A DNA stretch of 62,025 bases, from positions 1-62,025 of the forward strand of contig JALVMN010000381.1 of assembly GCA_027027005.1 (NCBI GenBank), given 5' to 3'. Shown one piece after another: positions 56,564 through 62,009 of the stretch (positions within the stretch are counted from its first letter, which is position 1; every line of letters begins with the position of its first letter). This DNA comes from Desulfobacterales bacterium (GTDB lineage: Bacteria > Desulfobacterota > DSM-4660 > Desulfatiglandales > Desulfatiglandaceae). Below the pieces are notes generated by a model. The model was not told the DNA's origin, ran no database searches, and worked only from the letters and a program-made list of their open reading frames with translations. Made by a program: the position numbers and the translations under genes.

Positions 56564-57730
56564 TCAGGCAATGATCTTGCTGTTGATCAAGGTCTCCGCA
56601 GCCTCCCTTGAATAACCCAATTCTTTGAGGATTTCAGGGGCACAAGAGCGCTCCATATCAGGAATTTGTCCAGCCTTTCCAGGGGTCCTTGAAAGACAGG
56701 GCACAGGGCGGGGTTGGATCATATCCTTGTGTTCGAGGAACAAGTGGCGGTGTTTGTTGTGGGGGTGTTGGGCCGCTTCGGCCAGGTCCAGCACAGGGGC
56801 TACACAGGCATCCGTTCCCTCAAAGAGTGCCATCCATTCATCGCGGGTCTTGGTCTTAAAAACCTGGGCAAATCTAGCTTTTATTTCGGGCCAGGCCTGG
56901 GTATTGTTTTGCTCAGGCAGTGAGGAGGGATCAATCCCCATAATTCTCAGAAGCTCCTGGTAAAAGCGCTCCTCAATTGCCCCCACGGCCAGGAATTTGC
57001 CGTCAGCGGTTTCATAGGTTTCATAGTATGGAGCACCTGAGTCAAGCATATTGGTGCCTATGTCCAAACTCATGAGCCCGTGGGCCCACATGCTGAAAAG
57101 GAAGGTTATGAGGCTGGTGGCCCCATCCAGCATAGCGGCATCGATTACCTGGCCCTTTCCTGTTTTGCCTCTCTCCAGCAAGGCTAGCAGCACCCCAAAG
57201 GCACAAAGGAGCCCTCCGCCTGCAAAGTCCCCCAATACATTGCAAGGGGCCAGGGGTTTTTCACCCTTTCTCCGGAAAAGGGATAGGGCCCCTGAGAGGG
57301 CAATGTAATTGATGTCATGGCCTGCCATTTTTGCATAGGGCCCTGTTTGGCCCCATCCTGTCAGCCTCGCATAGATCAGAGAGGGGTTGATCTCCAGGGC
57401 CACCTCAGGACCCAGACCTAATTTCTCCATCACCCCGGGCCGGTAAGGCTCTATCAGCACATCATATTCCTTGATCATATCCTTTACCACCTTGGCTCCT
57501 CTGGGGTTTTTGAGGTCTATCTTTATGAAGCGCTTTCCCCGGTGAAATGGGTTTCTGTTCATTATGTTGGGGATTTCAGGCCCCTTGCCACTGATCCTAT
57601 CCACCACCACCACCTGGGCCCCGAAGTCAGCCAGTAGCATGCCGCAGTAAGGCGATGGGGCAAGGCCTGCCATCTCTATCACCTTGATTCCATCCAATGG
57701 ACGAGGTTCTTTTAGGGCAACGTGATCCAT
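56564..57730 (-). CDS. CaiB/BaiF family CoA-transferase
   Basis: 388 residues from ATG 57730 (GGGAGG lies 9 nt upstream; the frame from 57751 overlaps this site). Typical start PLDGIKVIEMAGLAPSPYCG, then FGAQVVVVDR, IKIDLKNPRGAKVVKDMIKE and the catalytic-Asp region GHDINYIALSGALSLF. It fits the alpha-methylacyl-CoA racemase / formyl-CoA transferase group; AMACR-like length and the GHDINYIA motif favour a racemase. No adjacent fatty-acid gene confirms it. Confidence 0.9.
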   Translation of the reverse strand: MDHVALKEPRPLDGIKVIEMAGLAPSPYCGMLLADFGAQVVVVDRISGKGPEIPNIMNRNPFHRGKRFIKIDLKNPRGAKVVKDMIKEYDVLIEPYRPGVMEKLGLGPEVALEINPSLIYARLTGWGQTGPYAKMAGHDINYIALSGALSLFRRKGEKPLAPCNVLGDFAGGGLLCAFGVLLALLERGKTGKGQVIDAAMLDGATSLITFLFSMWAHGLMSLDIGTNMLDSGAPYYETYETADGKFLAVGAIEERFYQELLRIMGIDPSSLPEQNNTQAWPEIKARFAQVFKTKTRDEWMALFEGTDACVAPVLDLAEAAQHPHNKHRHLFLEHKDMIQPRPVPCLSRTPGKAGQIPDMERSCAPEILKELGYSREAAETLINSKIIA

Positions 57731-57804
57731 GAATAACATCCTCCCATCCAAACTCTGAAAGGATCATACCAGAGGAAGCCACCTTTCAACCATCCCTAAT
57801 TCAC

Positions 57805-57858: not shown

Positions 57859-59499
57859 CTAAAGGACCTTGATCTTATAAACCTGATTAGAGTCAGGGTC
57901 AATTACGTGCACACCGCAAGCAATACATGGGTCAAAGGAATGGACGGTCCGCAAGATCTCAAGGGGCTTTTTGGGATCGGCAACCGGTGTTCCAATCAAT
58001 GCCTCTTCCACTGGCCCAAGCTTGCCGTTCTTGCATCTAGGACCGAGATTCCAAGTGGAAGGCACTACATACTGATAGTTCTTTATCTTTCCTTTTTCTA
58101 TCTCTATCCAGTGACCCAAAGATCCCCTGGGCACATCGTTGAGGCCTACGCCCATACCTGTCTTAGGCATCTCCCAGGACTCGTAGGTTTTGTTGTTGCC
58201 CTTTTTGAGAAGGCCCACCAGTTCCATGATCCACCCTTCCATGGCATCTCCAATGGCCACGGTCTCAATGCAGCGGGCCGCAGTCCTACCCAAGGTGGAA
58301 AAGAGAGCGGTTACGGGCACGTCAAGTTTGCTCAATACGGTGTTGACCAAGGCCTTGATCTCTTTCTTTCCATAGGCGTAGGCCACCAGGACTCGGGCAA
58401 GGGGGCCAACTTCGCAGGGCTGATCTTCGTAACGCGGTGCCTTGAACCACGAATACTTGGAAGAGGTGTCATAGTCGCCATGCTGTGGGTTGGTTTCACC
58501 TTCAAACGGGTGCTTGGCAGCCTTGCCCTTGTACCAAGAATGGGCAACATGTTCTGTGACCTTGTCCTGCTCGGCCATCTTTACGCCATTGAGGTTCCGG
58601 TTGAGAATTACCCCTCTCGGCATGAATAGACTTTCGGGCTCGTTGTCTCCTTCAGGGAATTCACCCCATGCCAAGAAGTTGGTGGTTCCGCCGTAGTTTG
58701 CCCAATCTTTATAAAAGGAAGCAACGGCCAGCACGTCCGGCAGGTAAACATTCTTGATGAAATCCTGGGTCTCTTTCCAGACATATAGGAACTCGGCTAT
58801 TCGATCAGGGGTGAGGTCTTTGACACAGGTCACACCACCCACAACCAGGGTTTGCAAGTGAGGGTTCTTGGCCCCAAAGATTGCGTGCATACGTGCGGCC
58901 TTGGCCTGGAGTCGCAGGGCCTCTATGTAGTGAGCCGCTGCCATAAGGTTTGCCTCAGGGGGCAGCTTGTAGGCCGGATGGCCCCAATAGGCATTGGCAA
59001 ACGGACCTAGCTGGCCGCTTTCAACAAAGGTCTTGAGCCTTTCTTGGACTTGCTTGTAGTAAACAGCTCCTCCCCAAGGAGCGTTGCTTACATTGTCTGC
59101 AAGGGATGCGGTTTTCTTGGGATCGGCCTTGAGTGCACTTACAATATCCACCCAGTCGAGTGCGTGGAGGTGATAAAAGTGGACAATGTGATCATGCTGG
59201 AATTGCGCACCATGGAGTAAGTTTCTTATAATTCTAGCTACTGGAGGAATCTTGACTCCCACTGCGTTTTCAATTGCCCTCACCGAGGACAAGTAATGGG
59301 TGTAAGTTCAGACCCCGCAGGAGCGTTGCACAAACAAGGGCGCGTCTCTGGGGTCCCGCCCTCTGAGGATGATCTCAATTCCGCGGAACATCTGGCCTGA
59401 GCTCCAGGCATTGACAACCTTGCCACCGGAAACCTCCACCTCGATACGGAGGTGGCCCTCAATCCTTGTAATCGGATCTATCGTAATTCTCTTTCCCAT
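57859..59499 (-). CDS. [NiFe]-type hydrogenase large subunit with in-frame TGA (Sec64)
   Basis: One frame of 546 residues, interrupted only by TGA at 59308-59310. Before it: [20 protein letters not shown] ... [10 protein letters not shown]; after it: [20 protein letters not shown] onward. The joint gives RSCGV-U-TYTH, where every ordinary enzyme has RxCGVCTxxH (L1 motif), so Sec64 replaces the second L1 cysteine, a Ni-Fe bridging ligand. The L2 motif DPCIACGVH near the end has both cysteines coded by TGT and TGC; the C-terminal 15 residues after His form the usual cleavable extension. A SECIS hairpin follows the TGA. GGGAGAT precedes the ATG. Periplasmic with its Tat-exported partner. Confidence 0.9.
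59274..59310 (-). promoter_or_regulatory. bacterial SECIS element of the hydrogenase gene
   Basis: Minus strand, after TGA: a 15-nt spacer, then TTGTCCTC-GGT-GAGGGCAA, an 8-bp stem with one G-U pair and a three-base loop GGU, the loop being 23 nt after the TGA. Spacing and GG in the loop match the bacterial SECIS consensus. Confidence 0.85.
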
Positions 59500-59556: not shown

Positions 59557-60504
59557 CTATTCAGCCTGCTCAAAGAAGGGGGTCATCTTGTCCCAAAAAT
59601 TGGGCTCACTGCAACCAATACAGGGATGACCAGCTTCAATGGGCCAGCTTGTGCCGTCGTTGAATTTGGCTATAGGACAGTTGTTGTAAGTGTCAGGTCC
59701 CTTGCAGCCCATATTGTAGAGGCAGTATCCCATGGCGGCTTCTTCTGAGCCAAATTCCTCCACGAACTCGTCATTCTCATAATGGGCCCTCCTGGGACAT
59801 TGGTCGTGAATCGTTTTACCATAGGCAAAGAGTGGACGGCCAAGGTCATCAAGGGCGGGCAGCTTACCAAGCAATAGATAGTTGACCACAGTGCCTATCA
59901 GATTTACGGGATTTGGGGGACATCCAGGGATATTTAGGGTCTTGATACCCAGGGCCTCGCTCACTCCCTTGTATCCTCCAGGATTGGGGGCTGCAGCCTG
60001 GACCCCTCCAAAGGAGGAGCAAGTGCCGTAACAGATCACGGCTTTGGCTTTGGGGCACACATCCTTTGCAATTTCCAGGAAGGTCCTGCCCCCGATTTTT
60101 CCATAGGCGCCGTTATACTTGGTGGCAATGGCCCCTTCCACCACGCAGATGAATTTTCCTTTGTACTTTTCCACGGCCGAGTGCAAGGCTTCTTCGGCCT
60201 GATGACCTGCAGCGGCCATTATGGTCTCGTGATATTCGACTGATAGGATCTCCAGGACCAGTTGGTCAATCCATGGGTACATGGACCTCAGGAGCGACTC
60301 AGAACACCCGGTACACTCGGCAAAGTGAAGCCACACCACCGGGGGCCGCTGTTTTGGTGCCGCGAATACCTCAGCCACCTTTGGGACGAAAGAGGAAGAT
60401 AGCCCAAGGGTGGCGGTGAGGAATCCGCAGTATTTCATGAAGTCTCTCCGTGTTATCCCCTTCTCGGCCAGTTTCTCGTAGAATTCGGTTTCATCTCTTC
60501 TCAT
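59557..60504 (-). CDS. [NiFe] hydrogenase small subunit, Tat-exported
   Basis: 315 residues. The twin-arginine signal is GITRRDFMKYCGFLTATLGL, cleaved near VFAAP. The proximal cluster is set by ECTGCSES, CYGTCSSFGG and PGCPPNP; the distal by HDQCPRRAHYENDEF and GYCLYNMGCKG; the medial by NNCPIAKFND...SWPIEAGHPCIGC. That medial site keeps Pro (WPIEAG), as in standard [NiFe] enzymes with a [3Fe-4S] cluster, not the Cys of classical [NiFeSe] enzymes. The large-subunit gene follows after 57 nt. Confidence 0.95.
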   Translation of the reverse strand: MRRDETEFYEKLAEKGITRRDFMKYCGFLTATLGLSSSFVPKVAEVFAAPKQRPPVVWLHFAECTGCSESLLRSMYPWIDQLVLEILSVEYHETIMAAAGHQAEEALHSAVEKYKGKFICVVEGAIATKYNGAYGKIGGRTFLEIAKDVCPKAKAVICYGTCSSFGGVQAAAPNPGGYKGVSEALGIKTLNIPGCPPNPVNLIGTVVNYLLLGKLPALDDLGRPLFAYGKTIHDQCPRRAHYENDEFVEEFGSEEAAMGYCLYNMGCKGPDTYNNCPIAKFNDGTSWPIEAGHPCIGCSEPNFWDKMTPFFEQAE

Positions 60505-60767: not shown

Positions 60768-62009
60768 ATGAAAGGGAAATACAAGGGAAGCAGTATTCTG
60801 GTGGTGGGAGGAGGCATATCAGGGCTTATAGCAGGCCAGGAGCTTTCTGCCCTGGGCGCCCAGGTCCTGCTGGTAGAAAAGGACCATTTTATCGGGGGAA
60901 GAGGGGCAAGGCTGGCGTGCAAGGCAACGGAGCATTGTCTCAAGTGCAACAAGTGCCTGGTGGAAGATACGCTTAGACTGGTCAATGAAGAGAAGCCCTT
61001 TACCATTAAGACCCTCACCACGGTCGAGGTGCTGAAAAAGCACGATGGTGGGTTTCAGGCCCTGCTCTCCACCCTCAATCCTGTGATAGACCCCGAAAAA
61101 TGCACAAACTGTGGTGAATGCCTCTCGGCCTGCCCATTCAAGAGAGAGGGTGCCTTTATTGTTGCCCCATCGCCCAACATGCATCCCTTTTACGCCATAG
61201 AACCCAAACTTTGCCGGTGTAGTGAAACACGGCCATGCCAAGATGCCTGTCCGCAAGGGGCCATTGATTTTCAAAAAGGAAGTTCAAGGTGGACTTACAA
61301 TTGCGATGGAATTGTGCTGGCCTCTGGCTTTAAACCTTATGACCCCTCCAATGAGGCGAGATACGGGGTGGGACGCTTTAGGAACATAATTACTGCCGTG
61401 GACCTGGAACAGATGTTAAGGGATGAGCTGGCCGTTGAACCAACAGCCGGCGGGGATAGGATCAGGGTGGCATTTGTCCAATGTGTGGGCAGTCGAAACC
61501 CGAGGATCCAAAGGGATTACTGCTCCAGGGTTTGTTGCGGGTATGCCTTGAGGATGGCCTTCAGGCTCCTCCACAGGCAACCTGATTTGGATATCACCTT
61601 TTTCTACATGGACATACAGAATTTTGGGAAGAATTTTGAGAAATATTATCGAGAGGCCCGAGAAAAGATCAGGCTTGTGAGAGGTCTCCCGGGGGATTTC
61701 TACGGGCTTGAAAGCGGGGCGGTGAGGCTTAGCCTCTATGATGCTGAAAAGGGCGCCACCATGGTAGAGGATTTTGACTTGGTGGTGCTCTCCGTGGGCA
61801 TCGGCCCCAACTCTGAGGAGATCTTGAATGTCAGTGGATCATTGGAAATAGGGAAAAATGAGATGGGTTTTTTGACACAAGAAGGGAGCGGTCAAGGTGT
61901 AGTGATTGCAGGATCCGCCCAGGGCCCCATGGATGTATCGGAGAGCATTTCATCGGCAATGGCCGCTGCCCTTCAACTTGCACAGCACCTTGGTCTCACA
62001 AAGGAATGA
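60768..62009 (+). CDS. HdrA/QmoA-like FAD and iron-sulfur protein
   Basis: 413 residues. FAD-binding dinucleotide fold at the start (SSILVVGGGISGLIAGQELS), then a cysteine patch (ACKATEHCLKCNKC), an inserted ferredoxin-like module (CTNCGECLSACP and CRCSETRPCQDACP), and FVQCVGSRNPRIQRDYCSRV followed by CCGYA, as in HdrA and QmoA. A second FAD-site strand, GVVIAGSAQGPMDVSESISS, closes the protein. It lacks the long N-terminal part of full-size methanogen HdrA, so it fits the QmoA/HdrA2-type size. Divergent from the hydrogenase; it may couple its electrons to a cytoplasmic acceptor. Partner genes would lie beyond the window. Confidence 0.85.
   Translation: MKGKYKGSSILVVGGGISGLIAGQELSALGAQVLLVEKDHFIGGRGARLACKATEHCLKCNKCLVEDTLRLVNEEKPFTIKTLTTVEVLKKHDGGFQALLSTLNPVIDPEKCTNCGECLSACPFKREGAFIVAPSPNMHPFYAIEPKLCRCSETRPCQDACPQGAIDFQKGSSRWTYNCDGIVLASGFKPYDPSNEARYGVGRFRNIITAVDLEQMLRDELAVEPTAGGDRIRVAFVQCVGSRNPRIQRDYCSRVCCGYALRMAFRLLHRQPDLDITFFYMDIQNFGKNFEKYYREAREKIRLVRGLPGDFYGLESGAVRLSLYDAEKGATMVEDFDLVVLSVGIGPNSEEILNVSGSLEIGKNEMGFLTQEGSGQGVVIAGSAQGPMDVSESISSAMAAALQLAQHLGLTKE

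Follow-up and report, generated by a model that had tools for sequence, protein, structure and literature searches.

A predicted selenocysteine at the bridging position of the L1 nickel motif in a group 1-type [NiFe] hydrogenase from the Desulfobacterota

The window analyzed here, a stretch of DNA of 62,025 nucleotides taken as a whole, encodes on its minus strand a [NiFe]-type hydrogenase large subunit in which the codon for the second cysteine of the L1 nickel-ligand motif is TGA. We consider it highly probable that this gene specifies a group 1 [NiFe] uptake hydrogenase of the periplasm in which selenocysteine (Sec), inserted by SelB with the aid of an mRNA hairpin, takes the place of that cysteine and puts selenium in the Ni–Fe bridge. 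We also regard it as likely, with good confidence, that the enzyme represents a natural, Desulfobacterota-wide family of [NiFe] hydrogenases with bridging selenium, a subset of which would hold terminal and bridging selenium from one L1 loop, with L1 Sec in two lineages that are 53% identical and with repeated exchange of Cys and Sec. The features of the large-subunit gene are as follows:

57859..59499, minus strand: large subunit of a [NiFe]-type hydrogenase of the periplasmic group 1 type; 546 residues through one TGA, stop codon TAG; PF00374, 741.9 bits; nearest solved relative 1h2a_L, E 4.1e-221
59296..59325, minus strand: L1 nickel-ligand motif RSCGVUTYTH, residues 59–68, translated with TGA as U
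59308..59310, minus strand: in-frame TGA, codon 64, predicted to be read as Sec; TGA shared at this codon by 60 of 95 distinct genes
57907..57933, minus strand: L2 nickel-ligand motif DPCIACGVH, residues 523–531, all cysteine in translation; C525 and C528 align to residues 546 and 549 of 1h2a
57862..57906, minus strand: C-terminal extension of 15 residues beyond the L2 His, from the translation

When TGA is translated as U, codon 64 is the sole stop inside the 57859–59499 frame, and it coincides with the second L1 cysteine (RSCGV-U-TYTH). The first-pass annotation had described a large subunit that is continuous but for a TGA at this cysteine, together with an all-cysteine L2, and both descriptions hold for the 546-residue frame, which lies on the minus strand, a point that annotation had left unspecified. 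Global recoding of TGA was considered and rejected, since 18 of the 41 long open frames in the window (frames taken mechanically) end in TGA. The large subunit is the only PF00374 match in the assembly. [NiFe] hydrogenases carry a C-terminal extension that is cut off by a maturation protease, and removal of the 15-residue extension is expected here as well.

To place this gene among its relatives, we denote the L1 ligand pair as CxxC, CxxU, or UxxU according to whether each position is encoded as Cys or by TGA. The best 80 of 211 named-genome matches comprise 48 CxxU, 9 UxxU, and 23 CxxC genes, and the sequence relatives that the first-pass annotation had thought might exist are thereby at hand. 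CxxU members include the Eth-SRB1 partner (L073), the Olavius symbionts Delta 1 (L106) and Delta 3 (L085), and Candidatus Desulfaltia (L076 and L079). Full-length orthologues at 77 to 85% identity (60 relatives and the genome itself) have zero, one, or two TGAs, located at the L1 cysteines, and in an alignment of 23 sequences the Cys, single-Sec, and double-Sec forms are 73 to 98% identical to one another. The UxxU genes L042–L049 and L051 (with copies L004–L011 and L013) contain two UGAs nine bases apart and one conserved hairpin, which would be an instance of near-tandem Sec insertion in nature. Beyond the single Sec originally envisaged, nine named relatives and one member of a second lineage have TGA at both L1 cysteines, which the window sequence by itself could not reveal.

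Wider searches gave a similar picture. PF00374 at E 1e-60 gave 45 matches across the class, 21 of them with TGA and all 21 placed in the family of the window hydrogenase (L1 was read in 20 of these, all but G074). In a sample of the phylum, 175 of 395 genomes matched at E 1e-150, and among the matches listed 11 have TGA; three of these 11 belong to the second lineage, which is 53% identical to the window protein and, with a neighboring fourth gene included, holds L151 (UxxU), L152 and L153 (CxxU), and L154 (CxxC). The taxonomic family of this second lineage (8 genomes) yielded L151–L154, which are 88 to 100% identical to L151, and six TGA-free matches at 44 to 47%. A tree of 99 distinct proteins, of a quick kind with weak support on 28 of its 96 inner branches, requires a minimum of 19 changes among the three L1 states and at least 15 between Sec and Cys at the second L1 position (13 without L151–L154), all counted without direction.

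Reading frames were followed in a set of 109 genes (L002, L040–L119 less L118, L121, L122, L124, and L127–L154), from which L003–L026, L031, L120, L123, L125, and L126 were excluded, mostly as duplicates of included loci; L026 (CxxU) and L031 (CxxC) are partial, and L118 (CxxC) was read separately and is counted among the 80 but lies outside the 109. Between the DP-x-TRIEG start region and L2, no further TGA or other stop occurs in any of the 109 genes. The L2 ligands are Cys–Cys in 108 of them, the remaining gene ending with its contig after DPCIAC.

Bacterial SECIS elements are stem–loops located just past the UGA whose loop begins with two Gs, and a hairpin of this kind follows the TGA in the window:

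59274..59292, minus strand: SECIS-like hairpin TTGTCCTC-GGT-GAGGGCAA; 8-bp stem, loop GGT at 59284–59282, 23 nt between TGA and loop

Counting from the T of TGA, the stem pairs bases 19–26 with 30–37 around loop bases 27–29. A hairpin with its loop at this distance had been proposed from the window sequence; we find it at 59292–59274 and find that it tracks TGA among relatives. In the 95 distinct genes of the main family and nearer outgroups (L151–L154 omitted), codon 64 is TGA in 60 and Cys in 35, and a stem of at least seven of eight pairs with a loop starting in GG is present in 60/60 of the former vs 1/35 of the latter. The 84 distinct genes below L139, to which the 95-gene count adds the nearer outgroups, comprise 60 TGA and 24 Cys genes and were used for the codon and stem statistics; here the same stem with an unrestricted loop occurs in 60/60 TGA vs 2/24 Cys genes. 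Of the 60 TGA genes, 55 have the loop GGT and the other 5 have GGC. Among seven independent Sec/Cys pairs on well-supported branches, the hairpin follows Sec in six, opposes it in none, and shows no difference in one (p 0.03). We consider the hairpin more than chance because the codon is TGA in 60 of 95 genes and the hairpin tracks it.

This association resides in a stem at a fixed place. Folded alone, the window hairpin is unexceptional (z −1.38; equaled or bettered by 18 of 200 shuffled sequences), and at gathering scores Rfam reports nothing at the hairpin, its single hit across the window being a tRNA. When the best hairpin nearby is sought freely, its energy does not split TGA from Cys genes (means of −9.2, −9.5, and −9.5 kcal/mol for CxxU, UxxU, and CxxC, respectively); TGA and Cys genes are separated only by the stem at its fixed position and not by free-search energy. 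The stem shows few compensated pair changes. The pair at its base, T-A in the window, is C-G in 49, T-G in eight, T-A in two, and broken in one of the 60 TGA genes, and the fourth pair is G-T for T-G in one gene and broken in five. L053, on a contig of equal length and form to that of L014, is a Cys form (TGC) that the tree places amid CxxU genes; it keeps the whole hairpin, probably as a leftover from a recent Sec-to-Cys change. For other selenoproteins, the available text of PMC1794560 likewise proposes remnant hairpins. In the second lineage the stem differs (CAGCTC/GAGCTG, loop CGTGA), with the loop starting at the same base; since the Cys gene L154 keeps this hairpin, it does not separate the forms there.

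Codon usage over the hairpin region carries a further signature. The codon excess at positions +5 to +13 in TGA genes is 0.553, vs a mean over codon windows of 0.068 (sd 0.068) and the top of all such windows, and in Cys genes it is 0.061 vs a mean of 0.056. Arg+10 is AGG in 60/60 TGA vs 6/24 Cys genes, whereas in the remainder of the TGA genes AGG accounts for 271 of 1478 Arg codons, and Ser+8 is TCG in 60/60 TGA vs 11/24 Cys genes. Synonymous codons after the TGA are frozen in TGA genes only. These observations bear on whether the TGA is a sequencing error or a nonsense mutation that has broken the gene, as one might ask of a window that comes from a metagenome assembly; with the same codon being TGA in separate assemblies from many genera, no second stop in 109 genes, and the codons after the TGA frozen, we regard either event as extremely improbable.

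The hairpin also bears on whether the large subunit is split into an N-terminal piece of 63 residues and a separate chain. The mechanical list of open reading frames does offer a TTG start at 59292, and the large subunit of the methanogen enzyme VhuU/VhuA is split. The conserved hairpin, however, has this TTG as its first codon; the TTG lies downstream of L1, and a split there would therefore lose a ligand; the Cys homologues, moreover, are one continuous frame. We give a split subunit a negligible probability and read the gene as a single chain with Sec at codon 64.

Machinery for such a reading is encoded in the assembly. Profile and tRNA searches identify selA (606.5 bits), selB, and a tRNA-Sec with anticodon TCA, which the first-pass annotation had named as genes to look for; they lie on contigs other than that of the window, in a metagenome-assembled genome with 8.9% contamination. 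A selD-like C-terminal piece, also on another contig and at its edge, scores 97.5 bits (cut-off 125) alongside two weaker matches, with a model that gives weak matches in all 14 control genomes as well. Within the class, SelB was detected in 68 of 85 genomes, and among the 21 that have TGA in the hydrogenase gene it was detected in 16. As a marker of the TGA form SelB was rejected, as it is present in 9 of 10 TGA genomes vs 16 of 16 Cys genomes in a subset of the phylum; its occurrence in both means that the Sec trait is common in this group and does not predict the L1 form.

A different decoding of the UGA, in which Cys, Trp, or another near-cognate residue is inserted by suppression and Sec plays no part, has in its favor that Cys insertion would leave a normal site. 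Reading as Cys needs neither a UGA nor a hairpin, however, and the SECIS-like hairpin is in 60/60 TGA genes and absent from 34/35 Cys genes, in an assembly that encodes tRNA-Sec(UCA), selA, and selB; we hold suppression to be very unlikely. Given that the TGA is conserved, that the hairpin and the frozen codons are linked to it, and that sel genes, including the selD piece, are in the assembly, we conclude from these sequence comparisons that UGA codon 64 is most probably read as Sec, in line with what was first proposed for the second L1 cysteine.

The position of selenium in the active site follows from alignment to 1h2a, a periplasmic [NiFe] enzyme from Desulfovibrio vulgaris Miyazaki F. 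Residues 81, 84, 546, and 549 of 1h2a are the four nickel ligands, of which 84 and 549 also bridge to iron, and residues 61, 64, 525, and 528 of the window protein align to them in an end-to-end alignment (E 4.1e-221) that has no gap near U64. The remaining nickel ligands are kept in all 23 aligned relatives, with Sec shown as Cys in the alignment. By homology, Sec64 would replace the Ni–Fe bridging ligand equivalent to residue 84, and in UxxU relatives the alignment would have Sec replace the terminal ligand equivalent to residue 81 as well. The part of the first-pass annotation that put the second L1 cysteine at a bridging position is upheld by the alignment of U64 to residue 84; selenium in the bridge stays, as it was there, a deduction from homology. 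An AlphaFold model built from the 23 close relatives was poor (pLDDT 51.3) and was not used.

It is conceivable that Sec is inserted but that its selenium is terminal, labile, or shifts on oxidation, which would make the enzyme chemically nearer to the classical [NiFeSe] hydrogenases. The bridge geometry of Sec64 is a prediction, and for the O2-tolerant Hydrogenophilus [NiFe] enzyme the available part of PMC10214449 describes a terminal Cys that shifts into a bridging site when the enzyme is oxidized. We consider this arrangement unlikely, in view of the gap-free placement of U64 on residue 84 and the retention of all other ligands in the 23 aligned relatives, and favor a bridging Sec64.

The small subunit is encoded directly upstream:

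59557..60504, minus strand: hydrogenase small subunit with a Tat-type signal; TIGR00391, 429.9 bits; TIGR01409, 23.3 bits (cut-off 16.7); aligned to 1h2a_S

The PF00374 match, L1 and L2 in register with 1h2a, and this adjacent Tat-signal small subunit with its FeS-ligand region are features of group 1 [NiFe] hydrogenases; the group's set of four cysteine nickel ligands is interrupted at the second L1 codon, which is TGA. The small subunit keeps the Pro of WPIEAGHPC, which aligns to WPVDAGHPC of 1h2a_S and which we take to be typical of a [3Fe–4S] medial cluster. Two further genes flank the pair: a CoA-transferase family III gene (56564–57751, minus strand) lies downstream of the hydrogenase, and a divergent neighbor (60768–62009, plus strand) encodes a Cys-rich flavin-type oxidoreductase that by eye resembles heterodisulfide reductase subunit A and has no Pfam match at 1e-10.

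We propose the following scheme for the host, which would be an uncultured bacterium of the Desulfobacterota. SelB and Sec-tRNA-Sec would bind the mRNA hairpin and Sec would be inserted at UGA codon 64; in UxxU relatives, one hairpin would serve both UGAs, its loop lying 23 and 32 nt downstream. The large subunit would then acquire its Ni and Fe(CN)2CO, lose the tail that follows the L2 His, and be exported by the Tat pathway together with the small subunit. Four residues would hold nickel, Cys61 and Cys525 as terminal ligands and Sec64 and Cys528 as ligands that bridge to Fe, and in UxxU enzymes the terminal L1 ligand would also be Sec, giving two selenium ligands from a single L1 loop. The mature enzyme would oxidize H2 in the periplasm and pass electrons via the small-subunit FeS clusters to an acceptor that, by analogy with group 1 enzymes of sulfate reducers, is probably cytochrome c. 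Bridging selenium may make for a softer Ni–Fe link and so tune the Ni–Fe unit, and it might be reversibly oxidized in place of Ni or S.

Natural [NiFeSe] hydrogenases have, in the literature as available to us, one Sec as a terminal nickel ligand, and ideas on the benefit of selenium (proton relay and oxygen repair) rest on that place. The Cys, single-Sec, and double-Sec forms described here would offer natural test sets for how the bridging chalcogen affects hydride binding, overpotential, and oxygen damage. The hosts are uncultured relatives of sulfate-reducing bacteria, some of which seem to hold two Sec, and if annotation pipelines to which the Sec site is unknown end the gene at codon 63, H2 uptake may be under-called in such genomes.

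Among known systems, the D. vulgaris Miyazaki F [NiFe] hydrogenase (1h2a) is the closest solved relative for both subunits; the four ligands align one to one and are all cysteine in 1h2a, whereas in the window enzyme one is predicted to be Sec. To our knowledge, only cysteine is known at the second L1 position of natural hydrogenases. We found no natural hydrogenase with L1 Sec in the accessible portion of the open-licence literature, where an earlier mention is possible, and reviews of 2022 and 2026 give, in their available text, UxxC as the Sec motif of hydrogenase alpha subunits. The classical [NiFeSe] enzymes (HysA of Desulfovibrio and Desulfomicrobium, and Vhu/Fru of methanogens) are likewise Ni–Fe hydrogenases with Sec as a nickel ligand, and HysA is likewise a bacterial UGA-Sec gene of sulfate reducers. 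Their Sec is a terminal nickel ligand in the place of Cys546 of E. coli Hyd-2, as stated in the available text of PMC11212049 and PMC4510704, in agreement with the first-pass annotation. It lies in L2, whereas the L2 ligands of the window family are cysteines throughout and Sec is predicted at the second position of L1, or at both L1 positions in some members. Sec at the first L2 position is absent both from the window protein and from the 109 genes; the HysA model NF045518 scores 423.1 bits (cut-off 780), and NF033181 narrowly misses its cut-off of 600 at 586.7 bits when scored with Cys replacing Sec. Classical [NiFeSe] hydrogenases also have a [4Fe–4S] medial cluster instead of [3Fe–4S] (available text of PMC10779653), a feature that the Pro kept in alignment to 1h2a_S does not match. 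It is the lack of the L2 Sec, the defining feature of classical [NiFeSe] enzymes, that leads us to set the window enzyme apart from them.

Two engineered or synthetic systems are also related in where selenium is placed. Evans et al. (2021) reportedly made Sec substitutions in E. coli hydrogenase-1 one ligand at a time. As described in the available text of PMC11212049, this work by Evans, Armstrong and co-workers (2021, PNAS) changed each of the four nickel-ligand cysteines to Sec; these variants include the L1 positions but are engineered, whereas the window family is natural and has single and double forms. In the model complex [NiFe('S2Se2')(CO)3], one selenolate bridges Ni and Fe and another is terminal on Ni, with metal–selenium bonds ≈0.1 Å longer and more electron-rich metals (PMC4510704, available text); selenium is placed as predicted for UxxU enzymes, though in a small molecule and not in an enzyme, and the existence of this complex makes the UxxU form chemically plausible. 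The L1-Sec hydrogenase would represent a new variant of [NiFeSe] hydrogenase that stands outside the classical family.
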